The notes under the pieces: generated by a model
What the model saw: the letters and a program-made list of their open reading frames with translations, nothing else
The model's database searches: none
Told to the model about the DNA's origin: nothing
In this document: piece after piece, positions 54,280 to 62,024 of the stretch
How positions within the stretch are numbered: position 1 is the stretch's first letter
How the letters are laid out: each line of letters starts with the position of its first letter
NCBI RefSeq assembly: GCF_027941835.1
Contig: NZ_CP116005.1
Span: forward strand, 1,689,501-1,753,500
Source: Sphingosinicella microcystinivorans
GTDB lineage: Bacteria > Pseudomonadota > Alphaproteobacteria > Sphingomonadales > Sphingomonadaceae
DNA: 64,000 nt
Direction of reading: 5' to 3'
Made by a program: the position numbers and the translations under genes

Positions 54280-56789
54280 TCACTCGTAGCGGAGCGCGTG
54301 GATGGGATTGGTGCGCGCCACGCGGTAGCTGTGCGCCGCGATCGTGCCGACGGCGATGACCATCGCGAGCGCGCCCGCGCCGATGAACGGCGCCGGTCCC
54401 AGCGCGATGCGCGCGTCGAAGCCGTTCAGCCAGTCGCGCATCACCCACCACGCGACCGGCCACGCGATCAGATTGGCGATCAGCACCGGGCGGCTGAACT
54501 GCCAGACGAGGAGCTGCACGATGCGCCCCGTGCTGGCGCCGAGCACTTTGCGGATGCCGATCTCCTTGGTGCGGCGCTCGGCGGTGAAGGCGGCGAGGCC
54601 GAACAGGCCGAGACAGCCGACGACGACGGCGAGCAGCGCGAAGGCGGCGAAGGTCGTCGCGCGGGCGGCTTCCGCCTGATAGAGATCGCGGACGATGTCG
54701 TCGGCATATTGTCCGTTGAAGGGAACGTCGGGCGCAAGGCGCGTCCACACACCCTCGATGCTCCGCATCACCGCCGCGGGGTCGGCGCCCGTCTTGTAGC
54801 GGACGACCATCACCTCGTGGCTGTCGCGTTCGTAGAAGAAGGTGATCGGCTCGAGCGGGTCGCGGATCGAGCGGAAGCGCGAGCTCTCCACGACGCCGAT
54901 GATCGTCGCGGGCACGACACCGCCGTATTCGGGATTGACGATGGAGACGCGGACCTGCTTGCCGATCGCCTCGGCCGGCGTGCGGAAGCCCATGCGCTCC
55001 GCGGCGAGCTGATTGACGACGACATTGGCGCCGCGCGCGACGAAGGCGCGCTCCGCGGCCGGGTCTTCAGGGAAGGGCGCGACGAATCGTCGAGCGGGCG
55101 GCTGATGTCGAACAGGCGGCCGGCGAGCAGCCTGATGCCCATCGTGTCGAAGAAGGTGGTGTCGACCGAATAGACGTCGCTCGTCACCGGTTCGTCCTGG
55201 CCGGGCAGATACACGCCGGTCGACCGGTTGTTGGTCGTGTTGATGCCGATCTGCGTGCGCCCCACGGCGGCGACGTCCAGGATCTGTTCGATCTCGCGCA
55301 CCAGCGTGTCGCGCACGCCGCCGAGCTGCCGGCGGCTGAGCCCGTCGATCTGGATGAGCCCGTCGCGCCGGTATCCCGGATCGGAATTCCGCGCGTAGAG
55401 CGTCTGCGTGTAGACGACCGCCGTGCAGATGATGAGGCCGATCGAGACGGCGAACTGCACGACGACGAGCGCCGAGCGCAGCCGCCCCGAGCCTTCCGCG
55501 TCGGCCGAGGACTTGTTCGCCTTCAGCACCCGCGCCGGCTGGAAGCGCGACAGGTAGAAAGCCGGGTAGAGACCGCCCGCGACGCCGACCGCCAGAACGA
55601 GGCCGAGGACCGGGAGCAGCAGGCCTCCGTCGCCGAAATAGCGGAGCGTGAGATCGGCCTTGAGGAAGGCGCTGACGGCCGGGAGCAGGAGCTCCACGAA
55701 GGCGAGCGCGAGCAGCATGGCGACGGCGGCGATGAGGATCGATTCCCCGACGAACTGCACCACGAGCTGGCGGCGGTTCGCCCCGAGCACCTTGCGCAGC
55801 GCCACCTCGCGCGCCCGCTGGCTCGCCCGCGCCGTCGCGAGGTTGACGAAGTTCACGCAGGCCATGCCGAGGATCAGCAGCGCGACCACCGCGAACGTGG
55901 TGATCGACCGGTAGTCGTTGCCCGGCGTCATCGCGCCCACTTGCGCGCGGCCGAGGTGCACGTCGCGGACGTTCACGAGCGCGAAATCTATCGAATCCCC
56001 GGCGTTGGAACGGCGGCCGTTGATGATCTGGTCCGGGATGTTGCGCTTCTCCCACGCGGGAAACTGCGCGTTGATCGCGTCGACGTCGGCGCCGGGGCGC
56101 AGGCGCACGTAGATCCAGCCCGATTGCCAGCCGTATTCCTTCAGGAACTGCGGCTGCTCGGCCCAGTATCTCTGGATGTCGTAGCGGCCGATCATCGAAA
56201 TCTTGAGATGCGAATTCCTCGGCAGGTCCCTGAGCACGCCCGTGACGCGATAATCGGCGGAAATGCCGCGCGTGACGATGGTCAGCACCTCGCCCACGGG
56301 ATTGTCGGTCCCGAAGCGCCGCACGGCCTCGCTTTCGGTGATGACGAGATCACCGGGCTTCGCCAGCGCGGTCTTCGGGTCGCCGCGAAGCAGCGGAAGA
56401 TCGAGCGTGTCGAAGACGGGGCCGTCCGCGAACTTGAAATCCGGGACGTCGGTTGCGACCCCGTCCTTCAGCGCGACCGGACGGGTCGACAGCAGGTGCA
56501 CGCTCGCCTCGATCTGCGGGAAGTCTTTCCGCAGGGGCTCCTGCGCGACATAGGGACCCATTTGCAGGTCGTAGGGCTCACCCGTCTGGGGGTCCTTGAC
56601 ATAGAGCTGGAACTGGTACGTGCGCTCCGCTTCCGGCAGCCATTCGTCGTAGGTCAGCTCGTTGCGGACGAAGAGCAGGATGACGAGGCACGCCGCCATG
56701 CCGATGGCGAGGCCGAGGATGTTGATGAACGCGTAGACCCGGTTCGCCAGCAGCGCGCGGACACCGACCGTCAGGTAGTTCTTCCACAT
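54280..56789 (-). pseudogene. ABC transporter permease (MacB/FtsX type), frameshifted
   Basis: About 836 residues if joined. The start is MWKNYLTVGVRALLANR at 56789, with GGAGGAACCGACG before it. The N-terminal helix and MacB periplasmic core domain are followed by a first FtsX block (MACVNFVNLATARASQRAREVALRKVLGANR) and, after a second periplasmic core, a second FtsX block (AERRTKEIGIRKVLGASTGRIVQLL). The frame breaks at about 55080-55086, within GRLFDISRPLDD and FVAPFPEDPAAE, and one added base would restore it. The permease forms an ABC exporter with the ATPase gene 13 bp upstream. Large two-FtsX permeases of this form often export lipids, peptides or drugs. Confidence 0.85.
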
Positions 56790-56802: not shown

Positions 56803-57495
56803 TCAGGCGGCGCGGCGGCGCTCGACCAGCACGCGGCCGTCGAGCATATTGACGACGCGGCCCGCATAATCGGCGTGCGCGGGGGAATGCGTGACCATCA
56901 CGATGGTCGCGCCGTCCGCGTTCAGCGCCTGCAGCATCCGCATCACCTCCTCGCCGTGGCTGGTGTCGAGGTTGCCGGTGGGCTCGTCGGCAAGGATCAG
57001 GCGCGGCTCGGCGACGAGCGCGCGCGCGACGGCGACGCGCTGCTGCTGGCCGCCCGAAAGCTGGCTCGGCCGGTGCTTCGCACGGTGCGCGATGCCGACC
57101 TTGTCCATCACCGCCGCGACCCTGGCGCGGCGCACGGACGCGGGAATGTCATGGTAGAGGAGCGCAAGCTCGATGTTCTCCTCGACCGAAAGCTCGTCGA
57201 TGAGGTTGAAGCTCTGGAAGATGAAGCCGAGGTTCGCCTTGCGGACGTCCGCGAGCTTCGCCTCGGAAAGGCCCGCCACCTCGATGTCGCCGAAGCGGTA
57301 CGACCCGCTCGTCGGGCTGTCGAGCATCCCGATGACGTTGAGCAGCGTGGACTTGCCGCAGCCCGACGGCCCCATGATCGCGACGAACTCGCCTTCGAAG
57401 ATGTCGAGATCGACCAGATCGAGCGCCGTCGTCTCCACCATGTCGGTGCGGTAGACGCGGCTGAGGCCTTTCAGGCTGAGCATCGGCTGGGTCAT
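56803..57495 (-). CDS. ABC transporter ATP-binding protein (MacB/LolD type)
   Basis: 230 residues. Walker [20 protein letters not shown]-loop FIFQSFNLI, signature [15 protein letters not shown], Walker [13 protein letters not shown] and the H-loop [10 protein letters not shown] are complete, and the MacB/LolD-type wording is clear. A second ATG (MLSLKGL) four codons in is possible. It energises the adjacent permease. The gene sits between the HlyD adaptor (10 bp) and permease (13 bp) on the minus strand, in the sigma-54-driven operon. Confidence 0.94.
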
Positions 57496-57505
57496 GGTTG
57501 GCCTT

Positions 57506-58816
57506 TCATGTCTCGAGGTCGAGCCGGTCCTTGTCGGCGAAACCGGTGTAGGGGGAGGTGATCACCTTCTCGCCGGGATCGAGCCCGTCGAGCACCTCGA
57601 CAAAGTCGCTGTTGCGGCGGCCGAGGCGGACCGGGCGTTTCACCGCCTTGTCGCCGTCCGGCGTCACCACGAACACCCAGCTTCCGCCGGTGTCGTTGTA
57701 GAAGGCGCCGTTCGGGATCAGCCGCGCGCGCGACGGGTCGCCGAGCGTCAGGCGCGGCTGCAATGTCTGCCCGCGCTGCAATTGCGGCGGCTCGTCGCCC
57801 CTGAATTGCAGGTCGATCTCGAACGTGCCGTTGACCACCGTGGGATAGATCTTGGCGACGGTGAGCGTATAGGTCTTGCCGCGCCATTCGACGGCGGCGG
57901 CCTGACCGGGCCGGATGCGCGGCAGGTGGAATTCGTCGACCGGCGCGGCGAGCTTGTTTCGGCCCGCGCTGTCGATCTGCCCGAGCCGCTCGCCGCGCGC
58001 CATCGACTGGCCGACCTGGATCGAGAACGCGGAGAGCGTGCCCGACACGGGCGCGCGGAGGTTGAGCGCGTCGAGGCTGGAGCGGGCGAGCGCGAGGCTC
58101 GATTCGAGCGAGGCGGCGGCTTCCCGGAGCTGCGCCAGCTGTTTCGTCTGGAGCTGCTCGTCGGTGCGGCGTGTGCGCGCGACGACGCCGTGCCGGTCCT
58201 TCTGGAAGTCCAGCTCGTCGGACGTGTCCTTGAACGTCTTGCCGGCGACGAAGCCCTTGGCGGCAAGCGGCGCCTCGCGGTCGTACTGGCGCTGCGCCTT
58301 CCTGAGCGCCAGCTCGGATTCGAGCAGGGCGCGGTCGTTCTGGAAGCGCGTCTGCGAGAGTTGAAGTTCCAGCGCGCGCATCGAATTGAGCTGCTGCGTC
58401 ACCTCGGTCTGGCGCGCCAGCACCGAAAGCTGAAGCTCGGCGTTCGAGAGCACGGCGAGGAGCTGGCCCTTCTCGACCGTGGCGCCGTCCTCGACCAGCA
58501 CCTTCTCGACGCGGCCGCCCTCGATGGCGTCGAGATAGACGCTGACGAGCGGCGTCACCCGCGCGCGGACGGGAAGCGTGTCCTCGAACCGGCCGTCGGT
58601 GACAGTGGAAATCGTGATGCGTTCGGCGGGAACGGTCTGGCTCTGCCCGTCCGGCGCCACCGCGTAGAGGCCGCCGATGACGGCGAGCGCGACGGCGCCG
58701 CCGAGGGCATATTTGACCGGCTTCGGGAGCGTCCGCCTTTCGATGACCCGGTCCATGCCGCTGCCGCTGACGGCGCCGGCGGCCTCGGTCTCGTTCTTGA
58801 TGCGGACGACGCTCAT
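57506..58816 (-). CDS. HlyD/RND-type periplasmic adaptor of the ABC exporter
   Basis: 436 residues from ATG 58816 (GGAGAGGAAGCCCG before it). One membrane helix near residues 36-55 (VKYALGGAVALAVIGGLYAV) anchors a periplasmic part. A lipoyl-like half (VYLDAIEGGRVEKVLVEDGATVEKGQLLAVL) flanks a long coiled coil (about 120-240), with the matching half LNLRAPVSGTLSAFSIQVGQSMARGE after it. It should bridge the inner-membrane transporter to an outer-membrane channel; no TolC gene is here. It is first in the operon behind a perfect sigma-54 promoter. Confidence 0.92.
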   Translation of the reverse strand: MSVVRIKNETEAAGAVSGSGMDRVIERRTLPKPVKYALGGAVALAVIGGLYAVAPDGQSQTVPAERITISTVTDGRFEDTLPVRARVTPLVSVYLDAIEGGRVEKVLVEDGATVEKGQLLAVLSNAELQLSVLARQTEVTQQLNSMRALELQLSQTRFQNDRALLESELALRKAQRQYDREAPLAAKGFVAGKTFKDTSDELDFQKDRHGVVARTRRTDEQLQTKQLAQLREAAASLESSLALARSSLDALNLRAPVSGTLSAFSIQVGQSMARGERLGQIDSAGRNKLAAPVDEFHLPRIRPGQAAAVEWRGKTYTLTVAKIYPTVVNGTFEIDLQFRGDEPPQLQRGQTLQPRLTLGDPSRARLIPNGAFYNDTGGSWVFVVTPDGDKAVKRPVRLGRRNSDFVEVLDGLDPGEKVITSPYTGFADKDRLDLET

Positions 58817-58841
58817 CGGGCTTCCTCTCCGCCGGTGCCGA

Positions 58842-58856
58842 GCAAGCTGCGTGCCA
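58842..58856 (-). promoter_or_regulatory. Sigma-54 promoter of the exporter operon
   Basis: On the minus strand this reads TGGCACGCAGCTTGC, a complete match to the -24/-12 consensus TGGCACGNNNNTTGC, with GG and GC 10 bases apart. The start point would be about 58830, 15 bases before the HlyD ATG at 58816. Paired palindromes lie about 85-107 bp upstream. Confidence 0.88.
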
Positions 58857-58908: not shown

Positions 58909-58945
58909 CGTCCGATTCCGGACACTTGCTGTCCGAAACCGGACG
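58909..58945. promoter_or_regulatory. Paired palindromic activator sites, exporter promoter
   Basis: CGTCCGATTCCGGACA (58909-58924) and TGTCCGAAACCGGACG (58930-58945) are two copies of TGTCCGnnnCCGGACA with starts 21 bp apart, on the same face of the helix. The whole block is itself near-palindromic (GCGACCGTCCG 58904-58914 against CGGACGGTCGC 58940-58950). They sit 85-107 bp upstream of the predicted exporter transcription start, the usual place for enhancer sites of sigma-54 activators, and 20 bp after the small gene's stop. Confidence 0.8.
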
Positions 58946-58964: not shown

Positions 58965-59129
58965 TCAGTAGCGGACCGGGCCGAAGCAGGACGGAACGGG
59001 CGCGCCGCACGACGGCGTGCGGTCTCCGGCATGGACGACCTCGGGAACGGCGCTGATAATCGTGACGAGCGTTGCGGCGACGATCGCGCCGAGCGCGCTC
59101 GGGAGGCGGAAGCGGCTGAACGGGGACAT
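58965..59129 (-). CDS. Small exported or membrane protein under sigma-54 control
   Basis: 54 residues, from the ATG at 59129 with AAGGAGAACCGCA upstream. The N-terminus MSPFSRFRLPSALG leads into a hydrophobic segment (about residues 11-32, GAIVAATLVTIISAVPEVVHA) that could be a signal peptide or a single membrane helix. The tail has two cysteines (TPSCGAP, PSCFGPVRY) and a proline-rich composition. It lies between the response regulator and HlyD genes with its own -24/-12 promoter. No known family was recognised. It may be a cargo of the exporter, a sensor partner or a stress peptide. Confidence 0.7.
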   Translation of the reverse strand: MSPFSRFRLPSALGAIVAATLVTIISAVPEVVHAGDRTPSCGAPVPSCFGPVRY

Positions 59130-59180
59130 TGCGGTTCTCCTTGTCTGCGGCGGCCGGGGGACCGCCGCGGCAATGGCTTC

Positions 59181-59195
59181 GCAGGAACCGTGCCG
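59181..59195 (-). promoter_or_regulatory. Sigma-54 promoter of the small gene
   Basis: On the minus strand this reads CGGCACGGTTCCTGC: GG and GC with the required 10-base gap and five of six bases of TGGCAC. The start would be about 59169, 40 bases before the small gene ATG. The paired sites 59261-59297 are about 100-120 bp upstream of it. Confidence 0.7.
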
Positions 59196-59260
59196 GTTTC
59201 TGGAAATGGCGGATTTCCGCGATTTCCGCTGTACTGCCCCGATCTGGCACAGATATTGAT

Positions 59261-59297
59261 TGTCCGGTTCCGGACACCGGTTGTACGGGAGCGGACA
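59261..59297. promoter_or_regulatory. Second pair of palindromic activator sites, regulator start region
   Basis: TGTCCGGTTCCGGACA (59261-59276, perfect palindrome apart from its centre) and TGTACGGGAGCGGACA (59282-59297, two changes) have starts 21 bp apart, like the first pair. They stand about 100-120 bp upstream of the small gene's predicted start. They also cover the sequence just before the response regulator ATG at 59297, so binding here could repress the regulator itself. Confidence 0.75.
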
Positions 59298-60694
59298 TGG
59301 CGGAGAGCAAACCCTTCGACCTCTGCGTCGTCATCGACGACGACACGGACATATTGCTCGCGGCGCGGCTGCTGCTGCGGCAGCTCTTCGACGAGGTGCT
59401 GACCGCGGCCGACCCCGCCGAGGCGTTCGCCGCCACGGCGGGCCGCGCGCCCGACGTGATCCTGCTCGACGCCAATTTCGCGCGCGGCGCGACGAACGCC
59501 GCCGAGGGCTTCGAATGGCTGGGGCGCTTCCTGGAGCGCGACCCCGAGGCCGTGGTGGTGATGATCACCGCGCACGCGGGCGTGCAGGTCGCGATCGAGG
59601 CGATGAAGCGCGGCGCGACCGATTTCGTGACGAAGCCGTGGTCGAACGAGCGGCTGCTGGCGACGGTCCGCACCGCCGCCGCGCTCCGGCAGTCGCGCAA
59701 GGCGGTGAACACGGAAAAGCACCGCGCCAGCGCCATCGCGGCGCCGCCCGGCGGCGAGACGCCGCTGCTCGGCCGCTCGCGCGCGATGCGCCACGTGTTC
59801 CACCTGATCGACCGCGCCGGGCCCACGGAGGCCAACGTGCTGATCCTCGGCGAGAACGGCACCGGCAAGGAGCTCGTGGCGCGCGAGCTGCACCGCCGAT
59901 CGGCGCGGCGCGACCGGGTGATGCTGTCGGTCGATCTCGGCGCGATCTCCGAAACGCTCATCGATTCGGAACTCTTCGGGCACGTGAAGGGCGCCTTCAC
60001 CGACGCGCGCAGCGACCGCATCGGGCGGCTGCAGGCGGCGGACGGCGGCACGGTGTTCCTCGACGAGGTCGGCAACCTGCCGCTCCATCTGCAGCCGAAG
60101 CTGCTCACGGCGCTCGAACAGCGCCGGGTGACGCCCGTCGGCGCCAACAAGCCGGTGCCGGTCGACATCCGCGTGATCGCTGCGACGAACCTCTCCGCCG
60201 CGCAGCTCGCCGACGAAGGCCGGTTCCGGCAGGACCTGCTGTTTCGGCTGAACACGGTGGAGATCGTGCTGCCGCCGCTGCGCGAACGCCGCGACGACAT
60301 CCCCATCCTGATCGAGCACTATCTCGCGCTCTACGCGCGCAAGTACGGCAAGCCCGTGCAGCCGGTGCCGCAGGAGGTGATGGACGCCGTCGTCGCCTAC
60401 GACTGGCCGGGCAACGTGCGGGCGCTGCGCCATGCCGTGGAGCGCGCCGTGATCCTCGCCGGGGACGCGCCGCTCGGCATCGACGACTTCTCGCTGCGCC
60501 GCGATGCGCCGCGCCCCGTGCATGTGCCGACCGCCGCCGATCCGGCTGCCGACGACATGAACCTGGAGCGCGTCGAGCGGCGGCTGGTCGAGGCGGCGCT
60601 GCGCAAGCACCGCTACAACATCTCGCTCGCCGCGTCCGAACTCGGCCTCACCCGCGCCTCGCTCTATCGCCGGATGGAAAAGCATGGGCTTTGA
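59297..60694 (+). CDS. Sigma-54-dependent response regulator
   Basis: 465 residues. The receiver has Asp58 in VILLDANF as the phosphorylation site and DFVTKPW for the Lys. The AAA+ domain shows Walker A GENGTGKE (185-192), Walker B GGTVFLDEVGN (250-260) and the sigma-54 contact loop as GAFTDA (232-237) in place of GAFTGA. A Fis-type helix-turn-helix is at the C-terminus (HRYNISLAASELGLTRASLYRRMEKHG in pieces). It is the likely activator at both pairs of palindromes. Its 3' end overlaps the kinase gene by 11 bp. It is divergent from the small gene and exporter. Confidence 0.94.
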   Translation: MAESKPFDLCVVIDDDTDILLAARLLLRQLFDEVLTAADPAEAFAATAGRAPDVILLDANFARGATNAAEGFEWLGRFLERDPEAVVVMITAHAGVQVAIEAMKRGATDFVTKPWSNERLLATVRTAAALRQSRKAVNTEKHRASAIAAPPGGETPLLGRSRAMRHVFHLIDRAGPTEANVLILGENGTGKELVARELHRRSARRDRVMLSVDLGAISETLIDSELFGHVKGAFTDARSDRIGRLQAADGGTVFLDEVGNLPLHLQPKLLTALEQRRVTPVGANKPVPVDIRVIAATNLSAAQLADEGRFRQDLLFRLNTVEIVLPPLRERRDDIPILIEHYLALYARKYGKPVQPVPQEVMDAVVAYDWPGNVRALRHAVERAVILAGDAPLGIDDFSLRRDAPRPVHVPTAADPAADDMNLERVERRLVEAALRKHRYNISLAASELGLTRASLYRRMEKHGL

Positions 60695-62024
60695 CCAGCG
60701 CTTCACGCTCGGGCTCGCGCTGCGGCTCGCGCTGGCGCTGCTTGCGCTCGCCGGCCTTGCGTGGTCGCTGCTGACGCCGGGGCTCGGCGCCGTCCGGATC
60801 GTGGCGCTTCTGCTTGCCGCCGCTGCGGGGTGGGCGCTGTGGCAGCACGTGCAGCGCACCAACAGGGAGATCGCGCGGTTCATCGACGCGGTTCGCTTCG
60901 GCGACATGCAGGCGCGCTTCTCGCAGCCCGGCGCGGACAGCGGCTTCGATGCGCTCGGCGCGGCGCTCGACGGCGGTATGCGCACGCTCCAGACTGAGCG
61001 GGCGAAGCTGTCGGAGGCCGGGCGCTTCTACGAGGCGCTCGTCGACGATGCGCCGGTGGCGATGCTGACCGTCGACGCTGACGGCGCCGTCACGCTCGTC
61101 AACAAGGCGGCGCGGCGGCTGTTCAACCGTCACACGGGGGTGCGCGCGGCGGACTTCGAGCCCTACGGCCACGCGCTCGTCGGCGCGATCGAATCGCTGG
61201 AGCCGGGCCGCGCGCTGACGATCATCCTCAGCCTCGACGTCGGGCCGCAGCGCGCCATCGTGCGCGCAGGCACGCTCGCCCGCACAGGCGCGGCGACGCG
61301 CGTGATCGCGGTGCAGGTGATCCAGCAGTCGCTGAACGCCATCGAGATGGCGGCGCAGAGCGACCTCATCCGCGTGCTGACGCACGAGATCATGAACTCG
61401 CTGACGCCGGTGACATCGCTGGCGCGCACCGCCGCCGAACTGATCGCGGAGGCGGACACGGGCGCCGACCCGGTGATCGTGGATGCGCGGCAGGCGGTGG
61501 AAACGCTCTCCCGCCGCGCCGACGGGGTCATGCACTTCGTCGAGACCTACCGCGAGATCACGCGGCCGCCGCAGATCGCGCGCAGGCCCGTGCCGGCGGC
61601 GCCGTTCGCCGCCGAACTCGCGCAGCTGTTCGAGGCCGACGGCAAGTGGGACGGCGTTGCGCTCGGCGTCGAGGTCGTGCCGGAAACGCACGTCATCGAC
61701 GCCGATCCGGACCTGCTCGCGCAGGTCGTCATCAACCTGCTGCGCAATGCCGCGGAGGCCGCGGCGGCGCATACGGAGACGCCGCGCGTCGCGCTCCGTA
61801 TCGCCGCGATGCGCGCGGGCCGGACGATGATCTCCGTCGCCGACAACGGCGCGGGCGTGCCTGTGGCGGTGCGGCAGGACATCTTCCTGCCGTTCTTCAC
61901 GACGCGGAAGACCGGCACGGGCGTCGGCCTCAGCTTCGCGCGGCAGGTGATGCTGGCGCACGACGGCTCGATCGAGGTGGCCGACGCCGAGGGCGGCGGC
62001 GCACTGTTCCGGGTTATCGTCTAA
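60684..62024 (+). CDS. Sensor histidine kinase partner of the sigma-54 regulator
   Basis: 446 residues. Two membrane helices (about 8-30 and 36-52) with almost no periplasmic loop suggest sensing in the membrane or cytoplasm. A HAMP-like stretch and a PAS-like domain (DDAPVAMLTVDADGAVTLVNKAARRLF) follow. The phosphorylatable His234 is in LTHEIMNSLTPVTSLA, as in NtrB-like kinases. ATPase motifs: LLRNAAEAA, VADNGAGV, FTTRKTGTGVGLSFAR. It overlaps the regulator gene by 11 bp, and its end overlaps the convergent aminotransferase by 4 bp. Confidence 0.92.
   Translation: MGFDQRFTLGLALRLALALLALAGLAWSLLTPGLGAVRIVALLLAAAAGWALWQHVQRTNREIARFIDAVRFGDMQARFSQPGADSGFDALGAALDGGMRTLQTERAKLSEAGRFYEALVDDAPVAMLTVDADGAVTLVNKAARRLFNRHTGVRAADFEPYGHALVGAIESLEPGRALTIILSLDVGPQRAIVRAGTLARTGAATRVIAVQVIQQSLNAIEMAAQSDLIRVLTHEIMNSLTPVTSLARTAAELIAEADTGADPVIVDARQAVETLSRRADGVMHFVETYREITRPPQIARRPVPAAPFAAELAQLFEADGKWDGVALGVEVVPETHVIDADPDLLAQVVINLLRNAAEAAAAHTETPRVALRIAAMRAGRTMISVADNGAGVPVAVRQDIFLPFFTTRKTGTGVGLSFARQVMLAHDGSIEVADAEGGGALFRVIV

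Follow-up and report, generated by a model that had tools for sequence, protein, structure and literature searches.

The window analysed here, that is, the whole stretch of 64,000 nucleotides of Sphingosinicella microcystinivorans DNA, carries an open reading frame of 54 codons between a response regulator and an exporter. The question that this locus raises is whether the frame is a gene and, if it is, what ties it to its neighbours and where its product might act. The first-pass annotation of the sequence had placed there, on the minus strand, a 54-residue gene preceded by AAGGAG and coding for a hydrophobic N-terminus, and all these features are indeed seen at 58965-59129. Comparison with relatives makes it very likely that this gene is real and co-regulated.

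A small gene and its putative regulatory sites

The predicted protein has a signal or transmembrane helix at about residues 10-34, then a tail of 20 residues which ends in PVRY and contains both cysteines, Cys41 and Cys48; a possible AxA signal-peptidase site (VHA followed by GD) can also be recognized. The protein passes a sequence and hydropathy filter for a single N-terminal transmembrane helix at a length of about 50 residues, a predicted topology. In the database family scans no model matched the frame, and a protein search with the 54 residues against 59 genomes gave the query itself as the sole confident match, the next best having an E value of 0.005. Relatives were therefore sought by position, in what we shall call the slot between regulator and exporter. 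A literature search by title and abstract, with most subscription journals outside its reach, gave no description of the slot gene among the matches listed. Many slot proteins of at most 66 residues share a C-terminus of the form Pro-x-(Leu/Arg)-Ala or close to it (PVLA, PFLA, PIRA, VPLA, LPFA), which is possibly a processing or protease signal.

Table 1. Features of the slot locus, with their positions in the window
Feature	Position	Strand	Basis or remark
Slot gene, 54 codons, ATG start	58965..59129	minus	ORF translation and comparative evidence
AAGGAG ribosome-binding site	59137..59142	minus	7 nt before slot ATG
Slot-gene -24/-12-like promoter CGGCACGGTTCCTGCG	59180..59195	minus	3 mismatches to consensus
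Inverted repeat TGTCCG-N4-CGGACA, perfect; upstream pair, site 1	59261..59276		repeat scan
Imperfect inverted repeat; upstream pair, site 2	59282..59297		repeat scan
Exporter repeat pair, site 1, imperfect	58930..58945		repeat scan
Exporter repeat pair, site 2, imperfect	58909..58924		repeat scan
Exporter -24/-12 promoter TGGCACGCAGCTTGCT	58841..58856	minus	0 mismatches to consensus used
Response regulator, sigma-54 AAA+ and Fis-type HTH	59297..60694	plus	domain scans
Histidine kinase, two TM helices, periplasmic loop of about 5 residues by eye	60684..62024	plus	domain scan, sequence
HlyD/MacA-like periplasmic adaptor, DarC-like, below DarC cut-off	57506..58816	minus	domain scans
ABC ATPase, DarD/MacB-like, below DarD cut-off	56803..57495	minus	domain scans
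MacB_PCD/FtsX permease, frame broken near 55070	54280..56789	minus	domain test, frame comparison

The neighbours form a five-gene system, in which kinase and regulator diverge from adaptor, ABC ATPase and permease. An alignment of the adaptor gave at least 365 confirmed relatives, the best 80 of which were taken as named loci; among these best 80 of at least 365, the regulator is present in 76, a kinase match directly follows it in 74 of the 76, and all five genes are matched in 68. The kinase N-termini, judged by eye in 45 printed rows of the 74, consist of two hydrophobic helices and a tiny loop, so that this kinase appears to be devoid of a periplasmic sensor domain. At the locus of Sphingobium sp. 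SYK-6 (L086), regulator, adaptor, ATPase and permease were found along with a slot frame of 72 residues, and no kinase match was found there. The permease is read in one frame in a genome of the same species and in the six relatives printed, and in two frames in the window; because of this frameshift, the module may be failing in the window strain, or the sequence may contain an error near 55070.

As for the expression of the slot gene, a -24/-12 site had been announced 40 bp upstream. A site of the form GG-N10-GC is present at 59180-59195, with sites also in relatives; as 50 nt separate CGGCACGGTTCCTGCG from the slot ATG, the distance of 40 bp fits the inferred transcription start better. Judged by consensus, CGGCACGGTTCCTGCG is not significant, since the window has 68 sites with at most three mismatches against about 120 expected. 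The pair of repeats that had been described above the gene was found at 59261-59276 and 59282-59297, with the sequence pattern of paired activator-type sites over 59261-59297, and the second repeat ends on the A of the regulator ATG. It had also been proposed that slot gene and exporter share their architecture, and each does have a -24/-12 site and a repeat pair, that of the exporter (58909-58945) standing upstream of TGGCACGCAGCTTGCT.

Strand-matches to the repeat with at most two mismatches number 11 in the window, an enrichment over the 2.85 expected, and the exact palindrome exists as a single copy in the 4.53-Mb genome, at the slot locus. When one mismatch is allowed, there are 16 genomic sites, four of them at the slot locus, the reversed-pattern control giving seven. 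No two of the remaining 12 near-palindromes lie close together, and the idea of a wider regulon was dropped, as the whole-genome scan found no second close pair of sites. This genome has three unlinked UrcA genes, and about 120 bp past the end of one of them stands a single near-match of the repeat (G000:C1:2955198; L145:4199). RpoN is encoded in the genome (Sigma54_DBD, 228 bits) and the regulator carries Sigma54_activat, so that sigma factor and AAA+ activator are both present. We infer that the regulator binds the TGTCCG-N4-CGGACA repeats. At least one repeat is found above the slot promoter in each of the 64 loci that bear the slot arrangement defined in the next section. TGGCACAGATATTGAT (59245-59260, plus strand) was considered as a sigma-54 promoter of the regulator and rejected because its -12 GC is missing; the upstream repeat pair falls between TGGCACAGATATTGAT and the regulator ATG, a location that makes autoregulation of the regulator possible.

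The slot in related loci

Adaptor searches, which matched in 27 of 149 family genomes and in three of six of the genus, provided related loci, together with the 80 named loci and with a regulator search that matched in 60 of 397 family genomes; the 149 and the 397 genomes were drawn evenly from a larger family group. Twenty further stretches were fetched for regulator matches, 30 more loci came with the regulator search itself, and the remaining matches fell in loci already collected. A total of 158 loci were scored and 127 kept, near-duplicates remaining among them; we dropped 26 loci identical in a 120-nt stretch, four without regulator (L098, L110, L116, L132) and one without adaptor (L189). 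A regulator was considered as close at an identity of at least 61.5%, a cut set by eye, outside which the locus of Sphingomonas segetis (L100, 61%) falls. The slot arrangement was defined as a -24/-12 site with its first base 33-72 nt before an open reading frame that is led by a Shine-Dalgarno sequence and has a signal-like or transmembrane-like start.

This arrangement is present in 64 of the 86 non-redundant close-regulator loci, the window's included, and in none of 1720 dinucleotide shuffles. Taken separately, a qualifying reading frame is found in 70 of the 86 loci, against 1.5% of the shuffles and five of the 86 reverse strands, and a qualifying promoter in 85. Six of the 22 close-regulator loci without the arrangement have the reading frame and not the promoter or its spacing, the other 16 having no qualifying frame; the slot gene must thus be dispensable. 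In the 41 distant-regulator loci the arrangement was never found, and the same filter gave a qualifying frame in one of them. This set includes Gammaproteobacteria, Kordiimonas, a locus of the same genus (L058) and Sphingomonas segetis, together with four family members which, with regulator and adaptor 33-42% identical, are not clear orthologues. The median gap between regulator and adaptor is 218 nt in distant-regulator loci, compared with 425 nt in close-regulator loci. The shorter gap, combined with the missing arrangement, leads us to see the slot gene as part of an insertion that accompanies the sphingomonad-type regulator.

A second -24/-12 site stands before the adaptor and its exporter in 28 of the 64 slot loci, as it does in the window, and none was found at that place in the other 36. 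In these 36 loci, the slot gene is probably the first gene of the exporter operon. The earlier reading had seen neither this feature of the relatives nor the link with UrcA that is considered below. In ten close-regulator loci the adaptor is just 32-40% identical, with a regulator at 65-74%, and the slot gene is kept in all ten. One of these ten diverged adaptors was scanned and its best match was still DarC-like, so that the case for a slot gene which follows the regulator is weaker than it would be under a full exchange of the exporter. As far as sequence comparison can tell, the slot peptide and the exporter seem to be produced together, and the peptide also seems to go with the regulator and kinase pair.

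The slot holds more than one type of sequence, and its proteins vary in length from 27 to 126 residues. In genus code g75 and Sphingosinicella taken together, five slot peptides of 27-28 residues have little beyond the helix, the others having 36, 55 and 62 residues. Partial conservation of the tail (..AC....PVLA) is seen in genus code g103. A second type of slot protein, met in seven loci (L077, L083, L087, L089, L090, L095 and L184), has a conserved tail ..AFDSG..C....C (AFDFG in L095), and in some of its members the codons appear to overlap an inverted repeat of the exporter pair. Two of these loci, from Sphingomonas kyeonggiensis DS2008 (L083) and Sphingomonas leidyi DSM 4733 (L090), have matches to all five genes of the system, and their slot peptide is of type B.

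Codon-level constraint and a probable relation to UrcA

The nearest slot homologue found is a protein of 55 residues, of the window type, from Sphingomonas sp. LaA6.9 (L062). It had been expected that, if the gene were real, relatives would display an open frame with a bias for synonymous sites, and this holds for the helix: in a block of 26 codons, window and L062 differ with pS 0.39 and pN 0.10, the differences being distributed as 4/1/9 over codon positions 1/2/3 (one-sided Fisher p 0.002-0.012, from rounded counts), and the other reading frames of the pair have no such codon-position bias. When all 54 aligned codons are taken, little bias is left (pS 0.41, pN 0.30), since conservation does not extend to the tail. 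The same contrast is found within slot groups when pN/pS values are summed over all pairs of a group, pairs which are not independent: the first 34 columns give 0.32-0.52 in six of seven groups, and the five helix-only peptides of 27-28 residues are still constrained, at 0.39. Past column 34, the ratio is 0.52-1.17 in the four measurable groups other than type B, the upper value being that of the window group; conservation of the tail is thus unsupported. The two cysteines that the first-pass annotation had pointed out do exist. As a pair, they are not conserved, L062 having one cysteine and 25 of the 49 slot proteins shorter than 90 residues having none after residue 22. In the type B group, which is saturated, no constraint is visible by this measure (0.97), with 1.07 in the first 34 columns and 0.92 beyond them.

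UrcA proteins provide a control for these figures, and its outcome is mixed. In a pair that resides outside the slot, the signal region gives 0.85 and the rest 0.42 (0.57 and 0.59 when a third genome is included), and in another non-slot pair constraint extends throughout, with 0.06 and 0.05. UrcA proteins of the slot, in four genomes, give 0.33 for the signal and 0.71 for the rest, two close pairs having 0.23/0.27 and 0.36/0.26. Since one non-slot pair is equally constrained throughout, constraint on the helix could reflect secretion alone.

Is the peptide, then, a cargo of the neighbouring exporter? Its signal peptide would be cut after VHA, and the 20 remaining residues, with their cysteines and prolines, would be taken up from the periplasm by a MacAB/DarCD-like pump and secreted as a signal or an antimicrobial. 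The possible AxA site and the short mature tail would suit this role, and so would the nature of the neighbours (a MacA-like adaptor, a DarC/DarD-like adaptor and ATPase, and a MacB/FtsX permease), the probable single operon of gene and exporter in the 36 loci of 64, the partly conserved g103 tail and the DarC-like character that the strongly diverged adaptor retains beside the slot gene. Yet the arrangement is missing from all 41 distant-regulator loci though the adaptor is present there, the gene is kept in ten of ten loci beside diverged adaptors, and the mature part varies, being unconstrained in the window group and missing altogether from the forms of 27-28 residues. For these reasons a function as exporter substrate becomes less likely, and we regard it as improbable. 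What stands of the functional partner that had been proposed is, very probably, a real gene under selection, tied to the regulator by its site and its position.

Another way to account for this diversity would be decay, an ancestral UrcA having lost its function after insertion, so that the promoter persists while the reading frame drifts. Lengths spread from 27 to 126 residues, a tail at 1.17 in the window group, type B ratios near 1 and the 22 close-regulator loci, out of 86, that lack the arrangement are what one would expect of such a remnant. It is difficult to reconcile with it that the helix remains at 0.32-0.52 in six of seven groups, the helix-only peptides included, and that 64 of 86 loci, and no shuffle, combine Shine-Dalgarno sequence, start and promoter. 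A decaying remnant is therefore an unlikely explanation.

Where could the slot gene come from? In several related lineages an UrcA-family protein occupies the slot, and elsewhere the slot gene is shorter. All 13 slot proteins picked by eye as UrcA-like (75-126 residues) pass the TIGR04433 model at 25 bits or more. The window frame does not match that model, even at E values up to 10, and lacks the two-cysteine mature domain of UrcA, its own two cysteines belonging to an unrelated short tail; none of nine other short forms scanned passes, one of 63 residues reaching 18.5 bits for a cut-off of 25. A search for a structural match with full-length UrcA gave one weak chain (E 0.52), which was not used. 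With a profile of the signal region of slot UrcA proteins, the window frame scores 18.3 bits and beats 329 of 330 background N-termini as well as 50 of 50 shuffles, and, with a profile built from the other 64 slot proteins, six of the 330 score at least as high as the window frame. Of 47 short forms scored with the slot-UrcA profile, 11 rank first or second when set against the background sequences and the others do not stand out, so that for most short forms these scores do not establish a common origin with UrcA. The top background match of this profile (22.0 bits) is the first transmembrane helix of the L077 kinase, which belongs to the same kind of system, a likeness possibly due to helix mimicry or to low complexity.

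A quick tree of the regulators (93 rows) places UrcA on several separate branches, some close to the root of the clade, and twice nests short forms within well-supported UrcA-bearing clades (L048/L049 and L092); six slots were left as unclear in this tree, stop codons inside matches were read as X, and by itself it cannot separate shortening from lengthening. Put together, the constrained forms of 27-28 residues and the short forms nested in UrcA clades fit a repeated shortening of UrcA toward its signal helix. That the window gene is a shortened form of a gene which held UrcA in this slot is reasonably likely, and a descent from UrcA of the window copy itself is probable, to the extent that profiles and position can tell.

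It could also be argued that the gene codes for an UrcA-type periplasmic protein of metal or stress response, acting via its mature part, of which the short forms would be minimal versions. UrcA does occupy related slots, and in Caulobacter urcA is controlled by a two-component system and induced by metals (PMC8963506), but the window frame and nine short forms fail the UrcA model and the number of cysteines varies, which makes this proposal very unlikely. A chance frame in an intergenic regulatory region, for which one might invoke that a frame of 54 codons readily stays open in GC-rich DNA, that no database family is matched and that the promoter match has no significance of its own, is scarcely tenable in front of the comparative and substitution evidence.

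A possible action in the membrane, and known systems

We prefer to read the slot product as a micropeptide under sigma-54 control and targeted to Sec, probably what erosion has left of an UrcA, which would act in the membrane on the kinase or on the MacAB-like exporter; our confidence in this whole is slightly less than even. The slot, its pattern of promoter and repeats, the constraint on the helix and the presence of UrcA in related slots are computed directly; the site and the direction of the peptide's action are what we infer. An ancestral secreted protein of the UrcA family would have been shortened more than once, its signal helix being kept, and the slot gene, which sigma-54 RNA polymerase would transcribe under control of the divergent regulator, would now yield a micropeptide targeted to Sec and inserted in the membrane. 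An envelope signal, perhaps a membrane-active peptide, would activate the kinase, which, having no periplasmic domain, would pick the signal up inside the membrane or by way of the exporter. Once phosphorylated, the regulator would bind the pairs of TGTCCG-N4-CGGACA repeats, so that slot gene and exporter would be fired together, and the helix of the peptide would then act in the membrane on kinase or exporter, most likely as feedback. Action at this place is favoured because the kinase is without periplasmic domain, the helix is constrained and the tail is dispensable. Taken for itself, a feedback or accessory action of the peptide at the membrane is a tentative proposition. More daring, and doubtful at this stage, is the view that an UrcA-type protein was repeatedly cut down to a signal helix that is its working part, resulting in a micropeptide (down to 27 residues) that sits in the membrane and is the ligand or the brake of a kinase deprived of periplasmic sensor domain. 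Were the slot system to work as we prefer to read it, UrcA-family proteins would gain a well-defined set of partners and a place of action that can be tested, and we might have at hand a natural series in which a secreted protein loses its mature domain while its signal helix is still under selection.

Among known systems, the UrcA family (TIGR04433) comes first, as it occupies the same slot in related loci and has a signal region similar by profile to that of the window frame; it differs by its mature domain, missing in the window frame, which the family model does not match. Caulobacter UrcA is described as a periplasmic protein of unknown function controlled by the two-component system UzcRS (PMC8963506). 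There, urcA is under UzcR, presumably via the m_5 motif (PMC8963506), whereas for the slot gene a sigma-54 activator is predicted.

The feedback of MgrB on PhoQ is a further term of comparison. Like MgrB (47 residues), the slot peptide is small and has one helix, is apparently in the regulon of the two-component system on which it would act, and has, in the window copy, two cysteines in its tail. In MgrB the two cysteines matter (PMC8404706), whereas the pair is not conserved in slot peptides, which may also have a signal-peptidase site; furthermore, PhoQ has a periplasmic domain while the kinase of the slot system is almost without one.

The exporter shares with MacAB-TolC and DarCDE an adaptor, an ATPase and a permease of the MacB/FtsX type. 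The window proteins remain below the DarC and DarD equivalog cut-offs (190 of 450 and 261 of 375 bits, respectively), and the window exporter differs from the darobactin exporter DarCDE by its predicted sigma-54 two-component control. As for the regulator, its best NCBIfam match is PEP_resp_reg (335 bits for a cut-off of 503), which recalls PrsK/PrsR, the sigma-54 two-component pair of PEP-CTERM systems, where the neighbouring genes differ from those of the window. The N-terminus of PrsK is long, unlike the short membrane part of the window kinase. Finally, according to a study of sigma-54 regulons, FtsX-like permeases are sigma-54 targets linked to antimicrobial-peptide stress (PMC12316311).
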